DNA of 64,000 nt, taken from contig NZ_LT629791.1 of assembly GCF_900105925.1 (NCBI RefSeq), forward strand, positions 4,558,001 to 4,622,000, given 5' to 3'. The position numbers were made by a program, and so were the translations under genes. This document shows, one piece after another, positions 58,969 to 63,882 of the stretch (positions are counted from its first letter, which is position 1; the number at the start of each line of letters is the position of its first letter). Source of the DNA: Jiangella alkaliphila. Lineage in GTDB: Bacteria > Actinomycetota > Actinomycetes > Jiangellales > Jiangellaceae. The notes under the pieces were generated by a model that saw nothing but the letters and a program-made list of their open reading frames with translations, made no database searches and was not told the origin of the DNA.

Positions 58969-58984
58969 ACCTCATTATAGTGAA
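58951..58984. promoter_or_regulatory. Divergent promoters within a 9-bp inverted repeat (operator)
   Basis: TTCACTATA (58951-58959) and TATAGTGAA (58976-58984) are perfect inverted repeats. The right arm supplies TATAGT (58976-58981), a -10 box seven bases before ATG 58989 of the regulator; on the other strand TATAAT (58979-58974) serves the acetyltransferase. Both genes therefore seem leaderless and share one operator, the likely binding site of the XRE-cupin protein. Confidence 0.6.
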
Positions 58985-58988
58985 CGGC

Positions 58989-59549
58989 ATGGATCTCGTC
59001 GCGCTGGGCCGCCGCATCACCGATGCCCGCCTGCAGCGGTCCCTGCCGATGTCCGCCCTCGCCGAGAAGTCCGGCGTCAGCGCCAGCATGATCTGGTCGG
59101 TGGAGCGCGGCCGCAAGGCGCCCACTGTCGTGGTGCTGGACCGCATCGCCAAGGCGCTGGGCACGCCGATGGCGACGCTGCTCGATCCCGGCGACGTGCG
59201 GCGGGTCATCGTGCGCCGGGCGGCCGAGCAGGACGTCGCCGTCGCCCCCGACGGCTGGCGCCGCACGATCCTGACGCCGGTCGTGCCGGGGGTGAACTTC
59301 GAGTGGGTCCGGACCGAGCTGCCGCCCGGCGCCGCGCCCGGCGAGTACCCCGCCTACGCCGCCGGCTCCCACGAGTACGTCGTCGTCGAGACCGGCCGCC
59401 TCCGCCTCACCCTCGCCGACGACGCGCACGACCTCGCCGCCGGCGACTCGATCTACTTCGCCGCCGACGTGGCGCACACCTACGCCAACCCTTGGGACGT
59501 GCCGTGCTCGTACCACGTGGCCGCCCTGATCATGCGGCCGCGGAGTTGA
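58989..59549 (+). CDS. XRE-family regulator with cupin domain
   Basis: A 186-residue protein with an N-terminal helix-turn-helix (LGRRITDARLQRSLPMSALA, SGVSASMIWSVERGRKAPTV) and a C-terminal cupin (YAAGSHEYVVVETGRLRLTL, IYFAADVAHTYANPW with the HXH-type metal ligands reduced to H in VAHTY). Such regulators sense small metabolites. ATG 58989 is preferred over GTG 58980 because it sits seven bases after the -10 box. It probably represses itself and the divergent acetyltransferase. Confidence 0.9.
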   Translation: MDLVALGRRITDARLQRSLPMSALAEKSGVSASMIWSVERGRKAPTVVVLDRIAKALGTPMATLLDPGDVRRVIVRRAAEQDVAVAPDGWRRTILTPVVPGVNFEWVRTELPPGAAPGEYPAYAAGSHEYVVVETGRLRLTLADDAHDLAAGDSIYFAADVAHTYANPWDVPCSYHVAALIMRPRS

Positions 59550-59573
59550 TGGCGCCGCTCGTCCGCGGGGATG

Positions 59574-59704
59574 TTGCCGAGTGGGCCGTCCCCCTGCTGC
59601 CCATTGTCTTAGCCGTGAACGCGCGCCTCAAGTCCGACGCCTTTGCTGGTTGCGGTGGTCTGTGGCTGGGGGCTCTGGACTTGACCCGCGCGTCCCCGGC
59701 CTAA
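59574..59704. repeat. Non-coding palindromic array, left outer arm of hairpin 1
   Basis: This stretch begins 25 bases after the XRE stop. It contains GTCCCCCTG (59588-59596), TCTTAGCC and CTCAAGTCC (59627-59635), then after a loop GGACTTGACC (from 59677) and GGCCTAAG. The partner strand continues after the IS5 element at 60630-60653 (CGGCAGCTATCAGGGGGAC). Joined, 59588-59704 plus 60630-60653 form a long imperfect hairpin of 141 bases. A mirror copy is at 60934-62740. The open reading frame across it is not considered coding. Confidence 0.75.
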
Positions 59705-60626
59705 GTACGTGTTGGGAAAGTGGTTCGGCGTGCCTGCGTGACTGATGTGACGGACGTGGTGATTGTGGTGGTTCATGGACACGTCGTCGACACCGCGGTA
59801 CCCGTCGGATCTGACCGATGCGCAGTGGGAGTTGATCGCGCCGATGGTGCCGGTGAAGCCGGGTGGGCGTCCGGCCAAGCATGCCCGGCGCCGGATCGTG
59901 GACGCGATCTTGTACGTGAATCGGACGGGTTGTTCGTGGCGGCAGTTGCCGCACGACTTCGCGCCGTGGGACACGGTGTACTGGTACTTCAAGACCTGGA
60001 ACGAGGCCGGGGTGACCGACCGGATCCACGACGCGCTGCGCGCTGCGGTTCGTGATGGGAACGGGCGTGACCCGATGGCCAGCGCAGGGATCGTGGACGC
60101 CCAGTCGGTGAAGGGCGCGGACACCGTCGGGCGCGACAGTCGGGGCTACGACGCTGGTAAGAAGGTGAACGGCCGCAAACGCCACATCGTCACCGACACC
60201 CTCGGGCTGCTCATCGTGGTGCTGGTCACCACGGCCGGTCTGCAAGACCGCGTCGGCGCCCGCCCGGTGCTGGCGCGGGCGAAGATGGCCATGCCCTCGA
60301 TCGCGCTGGTCTGGGCCGATGGCGGCTACGTCGGCAAGCTGATCGCCTGGGCCCAGCAGCACTGCCGCATCCTGGTCGACATCGTGCGCAAACCCGAGGG
60401 CCGGCACACCTTCGAAGTCCTCCCGCGCCGCTGGGTGGTCGAACGAACACTGTCCTGGCTGATGCGAACCCGACGCCTGGCACGCGACTACGAACGCCTC
60501 CCCGAACACTCCGAAGCGATGATCAAGTGGGCGATGATCGGCCTCAGACCCGACGCCTGGCACCCGCGCCCGGACGACGCCCATGGCAACCCGCGCACCC
60601 CAGATAGCACCTTTCCCAACACTTAC
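59705..60626 (+). mobile_element. IS5-family insertion sequence (922 bp)
   Basis: Terminal inverted repeats GTACGTGTTGGGAAAG (59705-59720) and, on the opposite strand, GTAAGTGTTGGGAAAG (60626-60611) match at 15 of 16 bases. A three-base duplication TAA flanks the element (59702-59704 and 60627-60629), the TNA pattern of the IS1031/ISL2-like groups of IS5. It carries one complete transposase gene and seems intact, so it may still move. It is inserted in the stem of a non-coding hairpin. Confidence 0.88.
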
Positions 60627-60629
60627 TAA
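59775..60629 (+). CDS. IS5-family transposase
   Basis: A 284-residue DDE transposase in one frame. The N-terminal region is YPSDLTDAQWELIAPMVPVK with the DUF4096-like fold; catalytic residues lie in AGIVDAQSVKGAD (first Asp), ALVWADGGYVGK (second Asp) and WVVERTLSWLMRTRRLARDY (Glu). Start ATG 59775; a TTG at 59763 is possible. The stop codon TAA (60627-60629) lies outside the element, in the target-site duplication. Confidence 0.93.
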   Translation: MDTSSTPRYPSDLTDAQWELIAPMVPVKPGGRPAKHARRRIVDAILYVNRTGCSWRQLPHDFAPWDTVYWYFKTWNEAGVTDRIHDALRAAVRDGNGRDPMASAGIVDAQSVKGADTVGRDSRGYDAGKKVNGRKRHIVTDTLGLLIVVLVTTAGLQDRVGARPVLARAKMAMPSIALVWADGGYVGKLIAWAQQHCRILVDIVRKPEGRHTFEVLPRRWVVERTLSWLMRTRRLARDYERLPEHSEAMIKWAMIGLRPDAWHPRPDDAHGNPRTPDSTFPNTY

Positions 60630-60698
60630 GAACTCGGCAGCTATCAGGGGGACGGGGGAGGTGTGGCGACGGGCGGGTCATGGTCTGGCGTTACGTCG

Positions 60699-60772
60699 TG
60701 GTCTGCCGTTACGCGAAACGGCGGATTCGGGGCTCACGGCGTGACTAGGGACCAGGACGTAACGGCAGACCA
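60699..60772. repeat. Hairpin 2 of the palindromic array
   Basis: A perfect 15-base stem, TGGTCTGCCGTTACG (60699-60713) with CGTAACGGCAGACCA (60758-60772), and a 44-base loop. A near-copy of the left arm (TGGTCTGGCGTTACG) lies just before it at 60681-60695, a tandem imperfect repeat. No gene is seen here. Confidence 0.8.
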
Positions 60773-60792
60773 GGACCCCGGGCGATCACCAA

Positions 60793-60888
60793 CCTGGGTG
60801 TGAGTCGCGTCCTGGGTGTGAGGCGCGTTCCCGGGCCTGTTTCGCCGGTTCAGCGCGACTCAGACCCAGGACGCGACTCACACCCAGG
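60793..60888. repeat. Hairpin 3 of the palindromic array
   Basis: A perfect 25-base stem: 60793-60817 pairs exactly with 60864-60888. The arms contain GTGAGTCGCG and twice CCTGGGT; inside the stem the pairing continues with one mismatch (TGAGGCGCG with CGCGACTCA), giving about 35 paired bases in all. This is far longer than a normal terminator stem. Confidence 0.85.
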
Positions 60889-61011
60889 AAGCCAACGGCG
60901 CATGTCGGGCGTGGCTGTGCCCGGTTCTTCCCCGTCCCCCTGATAGCTGCCAGTTCTTAGCCTCGATCCACCGACAGGTGGAGTGTCGTGGTAGGGCGTG
61001 GGAGCGTGAGA

Positions 61012-61076
61012 ATGCCCTTCTGAGCTGGGAGGATACGACTTGTCTAAGGCACGTATCGCCAGCTCAAGAAGGGCAT
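61012..61076 (+). promoter_or_regulatory. Long hairpin just upstream of the IS1380 transposase start
   Basis: ATGCCCTTCTGAGCTGG (61012-61028) pairs with 61059-61076 (one bulged base), with an inner stem GATACG/CGTATC. It ends eight bases before ATG 61084. Such stems in insertion sequences can hide the ribosome site in transcripts entering from outside and so limit transposase synthesis; that role is inferred. Confidence 0.5.
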
Positions 61077-61083
61077 CTCGTAG

Positions 61084-62490
61084 ATGCAACTCTCTCACAC
61101 CCGACCGGTCGTCTCGGCGGCCTTCGATGAGCCCAACCTCGTGTCGTCGGCGGGCCTGGTCCCGGCGATGGCCCTGGCCGGCGAGGCACGGCTGCGCGAG
61201 CTGGGCGATGAGCACCTGAGCGTGCCGACGGACAAGGGCGCCAACGCCGGGCTGAAGCTGTCGGGCCTGGTCGCCGGCATGACCGCCGGCGCGGACAGCA
61301 TCGACGACATGGCCCTGCTACGCCACGGCGCGATGGGGAAGGTCTTCGCCGGCATCTACGCCCCCTCCACACTTGGCTCGTTCCTGCGCGCCTTCACCTT
61401 CGGCCATGTCCGCCAAGCCGACGCGATCGCCTCTCGGTTTCTGATCAACCTGACCCAGCGCACGGCCCTGCTGGGCGAGACCGCAGACACCGCGACGGTG
61501 ATGGTCGACATCGACGACACCATCGTGGAGGTACACGGCTATCAGAAGCAGGGCGCGGGGTTCGGGTACTCCGGGGTGCGGGGCCTGAACGCCGTGCTGG
61601 CCACCGTTTCCAGCCAGACCTTCGCGCCGGTGATCGCCGCCCAGCGCCTGCGCAACGGCTCGGCCGGGTCCCCACGCGGGGCGACGCGTCTGGCCACCGA
61701 CGCCCTCGCCCTGATCCGCCGCACCCACCTGGCCGGCCGAGACGTGCTGGTCCGGGCGGACTCGGCGTTCTACTCCCACGCCCTGGTCACCGCAGCGTTG
61801 AAGGCCGGCGCGAACGTCTCGATCACCGTGCGGATGGACCCGGCGGTCAAACGCGCCATCGCCGGCATCGCCGAGACCGCCTGGACCACGATCAAATACA
61901 CCGACGCCGTCTACGACGAGACCACCAGAACATGGAACTCTCGTGCCGAGGTCGCCGAGGTTCCCTTCACCGCGTTCACCTCCAAGAACAAGACCGACCA
62001 GGTCCCCGGCCGGCTCGTGGTCCGCCGTATCCCCGATCTCAACCCCCGCAACAGCGAAGGCCAGGACACGTTGTTCGATTCCTGGCGCTTCCACGCCTTC
62101 TTCACCACCACCGACACCACCGAGATGGACACCGTCGCCGCGGACCAGACCCACCGGGCCCACGCGGTCATCGAGAACGTCCACGCCGACCTCAAGGCCT
62201 CCGCGCTGGCCCACCTGCCCTCCGGGGTGTTCAACGCCAACGCGGCCTGGCTCGTCTGCGCGGTCATGGCGTTCAACCTCACCCGCGCCGCCGCGACCCT
62301 GACCAAGACCCCCACTCTGACCAGGGCGACCACCGCGACGATCCGCCGCAAACTCATCACCGTCCCCGCCCGGATCGCCACCTCCGCCCGGCGTCTGACC
62401 CTGCACCTGCCGACCAACTGGCCCTGGCAGACCGCGTGGTCCACGCTCTACAACGCCCTCTTCCCCCGGCCCGCCACGACACACACCTGA
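61084..62490 (+). CDS. IS1380-family transposase
   Basis: A 468-residue DDE transposase of the IS1380 group. Catalytic residues are in VMVDIDDTIVEVHGYQKQGA (first Asp, with the family YQKQGA), VLVRADSAFYSHALV (second Asp) and AHAVIENVHADLK (Glu). The gene is complete and shows no internal stop or frameshift. ATG 61084 is the start. Confidence 0.95.
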   Translation: MQLSHTRPVVSAAFDEPNLVSSAGLVPAMALAGEARLRELGDEHLSVPTDKGANAGLKLSGLVAGMTAGADSIDDMALLRHGAMGKVFAGIYAPSTLGSFLRAFTFGHVRQADAIASRFLINLTQRTALLGETADTATVMVDIDDTIVEVHGYQKQGAGFGYSGVRGLNAVLATVSSQTFAPVIAAQRLRNGSAGSPRGATRLATDALALIRRTHLAGRDVLVRADSAFYSHALVTAALKAGANVSITVRMDPAVKRAIAGIAETAWTTIKYTDAVYDETTRTWNSRAEVAEVPFTAFTSKNKTDQVPGRLVVRRIPDLNPRNSEGQDTLFDSWRFHAFFTTTDTTEMDTVAADQTHRAHAVIENVHADLKASALAHLPSGVFNANAAWLVCAVMAFNLTRAAATLTKTPTLTRATTATIRRKLITVPARIATSARRLTLHLPTNWPWQTAWSTLYNALFPRPATTHT

Positions 62491-62630
62491 CCACCAGCCC
62501 CCGCCGGCACGAGAAGGAACCCCAGTGGAAAGCCGGGCAGACCGGCAACTCACTCACACCCAACGTGATCACAACCACCTCGCCTGAAACCAGACGACGT
62601 CACCAAGCTGGTCGGTGGATCGAGGCTTAG

Positions 62631-62754
62631 GCCGCGTGCGCGCGGGTCAAGTCCAAGCCCCCGGCCACAGCGAGCGCCGACCGCAGAGGCGCGGACTTGA
62701 GGCGCGAGTGCGCGGCTAAGAGAATGGGCAGCAGGGGGACGCCCAACTCGGCAA
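62631..62754. repeat. Non-coding palindromic array, right outer arm of hairpin 4
   Basis: The mirror image of 59574-59704: it contains GGTCAAGTCC (62645-62654), GGACTTGA (62693-62700), GGCTAAGAGAATGGGCAGC and AGGGGGAC (to 62740), followed by GCCCAACTCGGCAA. Joined with 60934-60960 it forms hairpin 4 of 137 bases. Similarity to the left arm extends to 62754, 19 bases before the stop of the next gene. The open frame across it on the minus strand is not considered coding. Confidence 0.75.
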
Positions 62755-62772
62755 ACCCCCGCCGAACTGGCG

Positions 62773-63882
62773 TCACTCGGCCGGCATCACCCGCACCTCG
62801 GCCGCGTCGACGTCGCCCACCGGCAGCGCGAACTCCAGCAGCTCCCGCCCCTCCGCCTCGACGTCCGCGACCTCCGAGGCCGACAGGGGCCGGTACGGCG
62901 TGACCGTCAGCACGGCGTCCTCGAGCCGCCACCAGCCGGCCACCTCGCCGTCGACCAGCAAGGCGTGCGGCACGACGCCGTTGCGGCGGTTCATGCGCTT
63001 GCGGTTGACGTCGTCGATGACGCGGGTGCGGTCGGCGTGGGAGCGCAGCACGTTGTCGAAGTCGGGCAGGAAGCGGACCGGCGCCGGAACGTCGGCGTCA
63101 GGGCGGGGCGCGTCGGGGAGGTCGAACAGCTCGCGGCCGGTCTCGTCGCGGAACACCCGCAGCGACGGGCGCAGCTCGTCGACGACGGCGCGCAGCCGGG
63201 TCAGGCCGCACCACGTCTGTAGGTCGGCGACCGACGCCGGGCCGAAGGCGCCCAGATAGCGCCGCACGAACATGTCCGGCGACGGCGCCGCCAGCGGCCG
63301 GTCGAGCCAGCGCTCGACCGTGGTCAGCCGGGTCTGCCCGCTCTGCCCCCACACGGCCCGCGGCGGTACCTGGACCAGCACCAGCAGGGCCCGCGCCACG
63401 TGCGCCAGGTGCGCGGCGCCCACGGACGGCCACGACGGCGCGAGCAGCGCGCCCAGCTCGGCCATGGTGCGCGGCTCGGCGTCGACCAGCTCGCGCGCGG
63501 CCGCGGCCACCGCCTCGACGTCGACGCCCGCGAGCGGCTTGGCGTGCTCGGCGTTGGTGCGAAGGTCGGCGACGTAGAGCGGCTGCACCCACGGCCGCAG
63601 GGTCAACGCGTCGGGCACGGACAGAAGATGGATGGTGCCGCGCTGGGCCGCGATGCGCACCACCGTGCGGTCGAGCAGCAGCCGGGCCAGCAGCTCGGGC
63701 CGGAACCCGCGCAGCCGCGACCACAGCTGGTAGTACGGCGAGAACGGCTGCTGCGCCTGCAGGCCGCCCAGGTGCTCGACGGTGGCGAGCACGGAGCGGT
63801 CGGCACGATCGGCGCGGTCGAGCAGCAGCTGCCGGGCCAGGGTGGCGCGGTTCAGCTGGCGGCGGGTCAGCACGTCGGACAT
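62773..63882 (-). CDS. AlkZ/YcaQ-like DNA glycosylase (winged-helix HTH_42 family)
   Basis: A 369-residue protein of the HTH_42 (winged-helix DNA-binding) family, whose studied members (AlkZ, YcaQ) excise interstrand cross-links and bulky alkyl adducts. The catalytic QXQ motif is visible as Gln42-Ala43-Gln44 in LGGLQAQQPFSPYYQLWSRL. Later conserved blocks are RGTIHLLSVPDALTLRPWVQ and LPDFDNVLRSHADRTRVIDD. Start 63882 (MSDVLTRRQL). Some relatives give self-resistance to DNA-damaging antibiotics; no such cluster is in view. Confidence 0.85.
   Translation of the reverse strand: MSDVLTRRQLNRATLARQLLLDRADRADRSVLATVEHLGGLQAQQPFSPYYQLWSRLRGFRPELLARLLLDRTVVRIAAQRGTIHLLSVPDALTLRPWVQPLYVADLRTNAEHAKPLAGVDVEAVAAAARELVDAEPRTMAELGALLAPSWPSVGAAHLAHVARALLVLVQVPPRAVWGQSGQTRLTTVERWLDRPLAAPSPDMFVRRYLGAFGPASVADLQTWCGLTRLRAVVDELRPSLRVFRDETGRELFDLPDAPRPDADVPAPVRFLPDFDNVLRSHADRTRVIDDVNRKRMNRRNGVVPHALLVDGEVAGWWRLEDAVLTVTPYRPLSASEVADVEAEGRELLEFALPVGDVDAAEVRVMPAE

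Follow-up and report, generated by a model that had tools for sequence, protein, structure and literature searches.

A genus-wide repeat of paired hairpins in Jiangella and its single-hairpin relatives in actinobacterial integrative elements and plasmids

We analyzed a stretch of 64,000 nucleotides of the Jiangella alkaliphila chromosome (contig NZ_LT629791.1, positions 4,558,001 to 4,622,000; hereafter the window, with positions counted from its first letter), in which the gap between two convergent genes holds a palindromic element interrupted by two insertion sequences (ISs). The left neighbour encodes an XRE (HTH_3)-cupin regulator (58980..59549, + strand; Pfam PF01381, PF07883) and the right one an AlkZ-like DNA glycosylase (62773..63882, - strand; PF06224, E 9e-82). 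The left outer arm (59556..59586, +) is a species-specific quasi-repeat of the GTTGCCGAGTGGGC type and an inverted copy of the right outer arm (62742..62772, -). The outer part of the left half hairpin (59587..59705, +) comprises the outer foot (59587-59604), a variable covarying arm and the apex, and ends in the IS target CTAAG (59701-59705), where an IS5-family copy is inserted (59706..60625, +; transposase frame 59763-60629, by Pfam). The inner part (60626..60655, +) resumes with the repeated CTAAG and closes with the inner foot GGCAG-CTAT-CAGGGGGAC (60636-60655), which contains a conserved 4-nt bulge. It is followed by a cargo of species-specific type (60656..60931, strand not assigned), made up of the palindromic cassettes A (60675-60778) and B (60793-60888) plus inner arms. 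In the right half hairpin, the inner part (60932..60960, -) carries the inner foot (60932-60951) and CTTAG (60956-60960), at which an IS1380-family copy of 1665 bp is inserted (60961..62625, +; transposase 61084-62490), and the outer part (62626..62741, -) ends in the outer foot (62724-62741). Both inserts are thus flanked by a repeated CTWAG (CTAAG for IS5, CTTAG for IS1380) and occupy the inner sites of the hairpins.

A sequence-only reading of this locus had described a mirror-symmetric block with inverted end hairpins, split by two insertion sequences. The symmetry was borne out by inverted arms of 81 nt (59556-59636 / 62692-62772, 83% identity) and 37 nt (59669-59705 / 62626-62662, 84% identity), and the two inserts could be identified as the IS5- and IS1380-family copies. 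Cassette A, its hairpin 2, indeed has a perfect stem of 15 bp. For cassette B, its hairpin 3, the perfect 25 bp stood, but the longer stem of about 35 bp contains two mismatches instead of one (60793-60827 / 60854-60888, 94%). We also agree that no protein is encoded, since only short frames reach into the block and none is gene-like by third-position GC. The sole Rfam match in the window was to the "Actinobacteria sRNA" Ms_IGR-7, inside an IS, and the hairpins had none. This match (60962-61080, -) falls at the left terminus of the IS1380-family copy, and the Rfam family may represent an IS1380 terminal region.

Comparison of 12 Jiangella genomes, including that of J. alkaliphila (G000), showed that the block belongs to a repeat family which is dispersed across the genus; the dispersed palindromic element that had been proposed among other options was thereby confirmed. 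In the J. alkaliphila genome, BLAST with the left arm gave at least 47 matches (40 of 106 candidates scored). The inner-foot pattern occurs at 74 sites and the outer-foot pattern at 80 sites (up to 2 mismatches), compared to 0 and 1, respectively, for the reversed-pattern controls. At 54 loci of this genome (up to 3 mismatches), at least one foot was present in 52 and all four feet in 28, while 21 had a frame of transposase length between or at the feet (judged by length, with Pfam run on some only). BLAST matches were found in 11 of the 12 genomes, with none in G006 and a single one in G003. Uninterrupted copies typically measure ~520-670 bp; the elements are extragenic, and many copies contain an inverted pair of palindromes. 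Additionally, 9 of 13 IS1380-type left ends in J. alkaliphila are positioned at family elements, and CTWAG is found on either side of all 8 IS1380-type copies whose two ends could be resolved. The CTWAG of the hairpin serves insertion sequences as a landing site. An autonomous copy with its own transposase was considered and rejected, the frames inside copies being of IS5, IS1380, IS256, IS3 or HTH_Tnp_4 type in the subset checked. At L233 (4161-6062, -), an IS256-type transposase (Transposase_mut) and the end of an IS1380-type transposase (DDE_Tnp_1_4, with a match below cut-off) share a single reading frame, which is probably one IS inside another. By eye, many feet (L223-L276) are flanked on their outside by species-specific quasi-repeats with a GTTSGCC-like heptamer at a spacing of ~18-21 bases.

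Each element is a frame of two inverted hairpin halves of ~130 nt around palindromic cargo. On the outer side of a half, the outer foot CGTCCCCCTGCTGCCCAT is followed by a CTTAG segment, a ~13-bp arm of variable sequence and a CTCAAG...CTTGA apex; the inner side consists of the complement of the arm, CTAAG and the inner foot GGCAG-CTAT-CAGGGGGACGG, and the right half is the same, inverted. We extracted 211 halves, aligned the 201 of usual length and retained 66 non-redundant ones in alignment A1 (67 at a 90% cut, one omitted). Pairs were counted on a hand-drawn structure of 44 pairs against 500 shuffles; as the halves are related, the shuffle counts are not probabilities. Both sides had changed at 17 of the 44 pairs (12.8 in shuffles, 3 of 500 reaching 17), and double-change cells numbered 206 compared to 89±9, a value reached in 0 of 500 shuffles. 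Pairing cells amounted to 90.0% versus 83.7%, and the covariation score was 0.164 versus 0.071. Covariation was lost on sliding by 1-3 columns, a control that favours the structure because the latter was derived from the same sequences. The stems of the halves covary, and further copies with compensatory changes, the main check that the sequence-only reading had named, were thus found.

Opposed CC/CC mismatches and the 4-nt bulge are nearly invariant across the frames. In the variable arm, read from the outer to the inner side, we counted 5 G.T pairs versus 27.6±3.1 in shuffles (minimum 16 of 500), 68 A.C pairs versus 71.5, and 45 other mismatches. The bias is evident in both loop types, with 23 A.C and 3 G.T for TCC and 43 A.C and 2 G.T for CGG. 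Since an A.C mismatch corresponds to G.T on the complementary strand, the constraint in the variable arm falls on the strand read from the cargo outward. According to DNA energies, this strand is the more stable one in 164 of 201 halves and the opposite strand in 35; RNA energies gave 115 and 86, respectively. In 20 distant hairpins described below, the corresponding strand is more stable in 16 by DNA and in 14 by RNA energies. The sequences being related, neither energy nor mismatch counts are independent. A strand test by RNA energies alone was dismissed as weak.

The cargo differs between species. We sorted 97 cargoes by ten signature motifs, typed by hand. In J. alkaliphila, A and B are each present in 21 of 29 cargoes and D in 13 of 29, whereas the cargoes of J. 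rhizosphaerae contain H (37/37), I (33/37) and F (30/37) and never A (0/37). G, H and I occur in 6/6 cargoes of J. anatolica, and G and H in 11/11 of J. ureilytica. H is a weak signature, because it also lies outside elements (10 times in window positions 1-59000). The two halves are the conserved unit, and the middle is an exchangeable, species-specific cargo. Palindromic cassettes are also located in gene gaps without a frame or beside one (L285, which is the J. anatolica window site, and L079) and are therefore able to exist alone.

In order to obtain the history of individual sites, we compared gene gaps between species. At 11 J. alkaliphila loci, an element is present at the matching gap of another species; the other-species loci were chosen for carrying an element, so that absence is unsampled in this count, and at one of the 11 (L254) only a foot remnant is left in J. 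alkaliphila. The window site and a second one, site X, were looked for in all 12 genomes by reading the orthologous gaps. The window site is empty in G003, G004, G007 and G011, where the XRE and AlkZ matches lie ~10-45 bases apart. It is occupied by an element in G009, by one without the right half in G005, by other palindromes in G002 and by unrelated filler in G001 and G010; for G006 and G008, the stretch read did not reveal the left gene. Site X, whose upstream gene retains its own terminator-like hairpin, holds a whole element in G000, G002 and G009, a partial one in G001, G008 and G010, a cargo remnant in G004 and no element in G003, G005, G006 and G007 (G011 not covered). A shared-site half was the closest of its species in only 1 of 24 comparisons (rank 1 of 4); these include left-versus-right pairs and unlike loop types, two of them (L271 with L177) have one matched flank, and three further shared-site pairs yielded no comparison. 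Overall, the halves have their nearest counterparts among paralogues in their own genome (89-97%). We thus observed empty sites in sister species together with shared gaps whose contents are homogenised within each genome. Elements that are kept in place while their content is homogenised within the genome imply concerted evolution, and separate insertions at the same spots are less likely.

Relatives of the halves were searched for with R1, a covariance model of A1, which was run on 393 Actinomycetes genomes with strict filters. R1 matched 18 genomes in 3 of 137 genera, namely 12/12 Jiangella, 4/5 in a second genus of its family and 2/5 in a genus from another family; a Kribbella locus (L134) was matched with E 1e-10. 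In the loci read, the relatives are single hairpins. Several are located in integrative elements with RepSA (E 4e-93 to 5e-96), an FtsK-like transfer protein and an integrase, or near tRNA genes. The apex carries two or three GNA-triloop mini-hairpins in 10 of 15 distant loci, and no triple of this kind was found in 596 kb of control loci. Over 22 hairpin loci (385 kb), all 21 R1 matches with E<=0.1 fell on hairpins, in 13 loci. Eighteen of them (11 loci) coincide with a separate GNA-loop scan, and the hairpins of L324 and L326 (3 matches) were defined through R1 only. A pattern of the apex occurred in 17 of 393 genomes and 10 of 137 genera (control 0), and R1 matched 8 of the 17 loci located in this way; the pattern was taken from R1-found hairpins and is hence only partly independent. 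The mini-stem varies (TCGC/GCGA, TCAC/GTGA, GCGC/GCGC), as does the middle base of the loop (A, C, G or T). A planctomycete locus (L105) was discarded as a chance match although R1 gave E 0.00093, as it shows a common 20-mer and, by eye, no frame. On a contig of G292 (L363), clusters of GNA mini-hairpins lie near 4.2-4.6 kb and 7.0-7.3 kb, and at L366 the single hairpin is present three times within 7 kb, in the vicinity of genes for ParB_N and ArdC-like anti-restriction proteins.

On plasmids, the hairpin of genome G165 (L307) gave BLAST matches in 21 records, none covering 80% of the query. Among the 20 listed, the match site has no annotated feature in 16, lies in a gene in 3 and belongs to an unannotated record in 1. 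Plasmid and phage BLAST with a frame half and plasmid BLAST with the L314 hairpin gave no match. In pPA43082, a Rep_1-type rep gene adjoins the hairpin, and in a Prauserella plasmid the hairpin is located between the genes for a primase-polymerase and the single-stranded-DNA-binding protein (SSB). Together, the data support homology between each half and a single hairpin of pSAM2-type (RepSA) integrative elements and of some rolling-circle and other Actinomycetes plasmids.

The association with rep was analyzed by tblastn. RepSA was found in 13 of 32 hairpin loci compared to 0 of 74 controls, all of which are Jiangella loci of shorter length (596 kb in total), whereby three of the 13 had supplied RepSA queries and one holds a 50-residue fragment. 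In 12 of the 13 RepSA loci and also in a Rep_1 plasmid, the strand that folds is the sense strand of rep; it was called from R1 for L324 and L326 and from the apex pattern for L371. The distance between hairpin and rep is ~2-9 kb in the RepSA loci, and the two are adjacent in pPA43082. J. alkaliphila itself carries a RepSA element (RepSA E 4e-93, integrase, GntR protein). During rolling-circle replication, the displaced strand is normally the rep sense strand, and the hairpin therefore lies on the strand where a single-strand origin belongs. Single-strand origins are described as orientation-specific and typically active only when single-stranded (PMC4595007).

Overall, our results suggest that the family is similar to REPINs, doublets of repetitive extragenic palindromic (REP) sequences, and was built from a plasmid-type candidate single-strand-origin hairpin, an interpretation to which we assign a probability of roughly 0.56. 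The relative hairpin, as a candidate single-strand origin, would fold only in single-stranded DNA (ssDNA) and prime complementary-strand synthesis. With an inverted pair, either DNA strand would carry one hairpin in the correct orientation, and therefore any single-stranded copy could become double-stranded. The frames could then spread through conversion to duplex combined with recombination among the copies, by which they would also keep converting each other; recombination might thus be the homogenising force. A more far-reaching and rather doubtful version is that the frames form a repeat class domesticated from plasmid single-strand origins, in which the pair works on either strand, ssDNA arising from replication, repair or uptake is made duplex, and the cassettes form a recombining, self-homogenising network.

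Several observations, together with the limits given above for individual counts, weigh against a REPIN-like repeat built from a single-strand-origin hairpin. The window element lies outside any rolling-circle replicon, in the chromosomal gap between the XRE and AlkZ genes, with IS transposases as the sole genes inside and no rep gene at the site. We found no spreading enzyme and no clear target-site duplication (flanks judged by eye, the outer arms being species-specific quasi-repeats). RepSA was not found in 19 of 32 hairpin loci, the strand exception is the RepSA fragment of 50 residues at L318, and the 12 strand agreements represent few lineages, with seven loci in Jiangella, four in a sister genus and one elsewhere. 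R1 does not detect 9 of the 22 loci, and its match to L356 is weak (E 0.035). The plasmid matches of the G165 hairpin cover 30-54% of the query among the 20 listed, and the folded strand of the Prauserella plasmid hairpin is opposite to the flanking genes. On six plasmid stretches with filters off, R1 listed the pPA43082 hairpin with E 0.029 and the Prauserella hairpin with E 0.18, scored another Prauserella palindrome better (E 0.00017) and did not list the Kocuria and two Streptomyces plasmid hairpins. In the halves, further standard pair types were not more numerous than in shuffles (42 versus 43.3). The G.T/A.C bias is limited to the variable arm; a count of every RNAalifold pair in the 201 halves gave 54 G.T and 82 A.C, with 35 of the 54 G.T at one single pair.

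In addition, the conserved ATAG could mark a nick site instead. The halves would then be double-strand origins nicked by Rep in the GATAG bulge, like the ends of IS91 or Helitrons, and the RepSA HUH protein of resident integrative elements would act in trans to move the frames, which would themselves be non-autonomous. This reading would supply a mover, given the RepSA element in J. alkaliphila, and it is consistent with the strand being fixed relative to rep, with the conserved bulge in the frames and with (G/C)ATAGC in 11 of 20 distant hairpins. We nevertheless regard it as unlikely. The hairpin occurs with two Rep families, RepSA and the Rep_1 of pPA43082, so that a single-strand origin read by the host is expected over a Rep-specific nick site; the hairpin is distant from rep in the RepSA loci, though not in pPA43082, and no terminus or integration signature was identified. 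A similarly low probability is given to a selfish repeat of the REPIN, bacterial interspersed mosaic element (BIME) or miniature inverted-repeat transposable element (MITE) type, moved by a transposase and with an incidental or secondary plasmid homology. REPINs are described as extragenic inverted pairs with species-specific populations and compensatory changes (PMC3116915) and as persisting for long (PMC8049555), both in line with such an origin. However, the Y1_Tnp domain (PF01797) of REP-associated tyrosine transposases (RAYTs) is present in 0 of 12 Jiangella genomes compared to 5 of 14 control genomes, the transposase frames examined inside copies belong to ordinary IS families, and a target duplication was not clear by eye. 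REPINs are also far smaller than ~520-670 bp, the copies being far above a REP doublet.

Less probable still is a structured RNA or a bidirectional terminator between genes. The strong covariation would fit an RNA, and of the 32 classed elements that have both outer feet, 13 are placed between convergent genes, compared to 59 of 259 ordinary gene pairs. Among all 51 classed elements, however, 17 are convergent, 26 codirectional and 8 divergent, and the convergent excess is not significant (p 0.11). Moreover, the constrained strand runs from the cargo outward, opposite to read-in from the neighbours, the upstream gene at site X has a terminator-like hairpin of its own, and Rfam has no match to the hairpins. 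A structured RNA, which the sequence-only reading had listed as an option, is therefore judged less likely than a structure of one DNA strand on account of the DNA energies, by which the constrained strand is the more stable one in more cases than by RNA energies, the GNA triloops of most distant relatives and the rolling-circle-type replicons in which several relatives lie. We consider it quite improbable that the covariation is unselected, with intrastrand template switching re-perfecting the palindromes and gene conversion spreading the result. Concerted evolution is evident, but the CC/CC mismatches and the 4-nt bulge have remained nearly invariant and uncorrected, and the mismatches of the variable arm are strand-asymmetric.

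Searches of an open-access library and of Rfam gave no description of the plasmid-type hairpin. The results illustrate a dispersed bacterial repeat that apparently persists in gaps shared between species and has its content homogenised per genome. They further point to a candidate ssDNA hairpin that actinobacterial plasmids, one of them with Rep_1, have in common with RepSA-type integrative elements. If the single-strand origin holds true, replicon origins, and not only transposon ends, could seed REPIN-like families.

Among known systems, the single-strand origins sti of pIJ101 and sso1 of ICEBs1 are described as stem-loops that are orientation-specific and active when single-stranded (PMC4595007; PMC4170104). 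The placement of the distant single hairpins fits this, whereas the Jiangella frames are dispersed on the chromosome in inverted pairs and without rep, and pIJ101 has no such hairpin by GNA-loop scan. Frpo of the F plasmid is described as a folded ssDNA promoter in the leading region that is read by RNA polymerase (PMC4595007). The position of the Prauserella plasmid hairpin upstream of the SSB gene is similar, but leading-region genes were not seen near the window frame. MITEs with long terminal inverted repeats are short, gene-free and dispersed, with inverted ends and a variable middle. The Jiangella elements share all of these features, but no target duplication or autonomous partner was identified, and their halves are themselves covarying hairpins. 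REPINs, with their RAYTs, are described as extragenic inverted pairs that can fold in ssDNA, show compensatory changes and form genome-specific populations (PMC3116915), all of which resembles the Jiangella family. The latter is without a RAYT, its halves are multi-helix hairpins with plasmid relatives, and its units carry a variable palindromic cargo. REPINs are thus the nearest known kind, from which the Jiangella family, lacking a RAYT, differs in origin, size and cargo.

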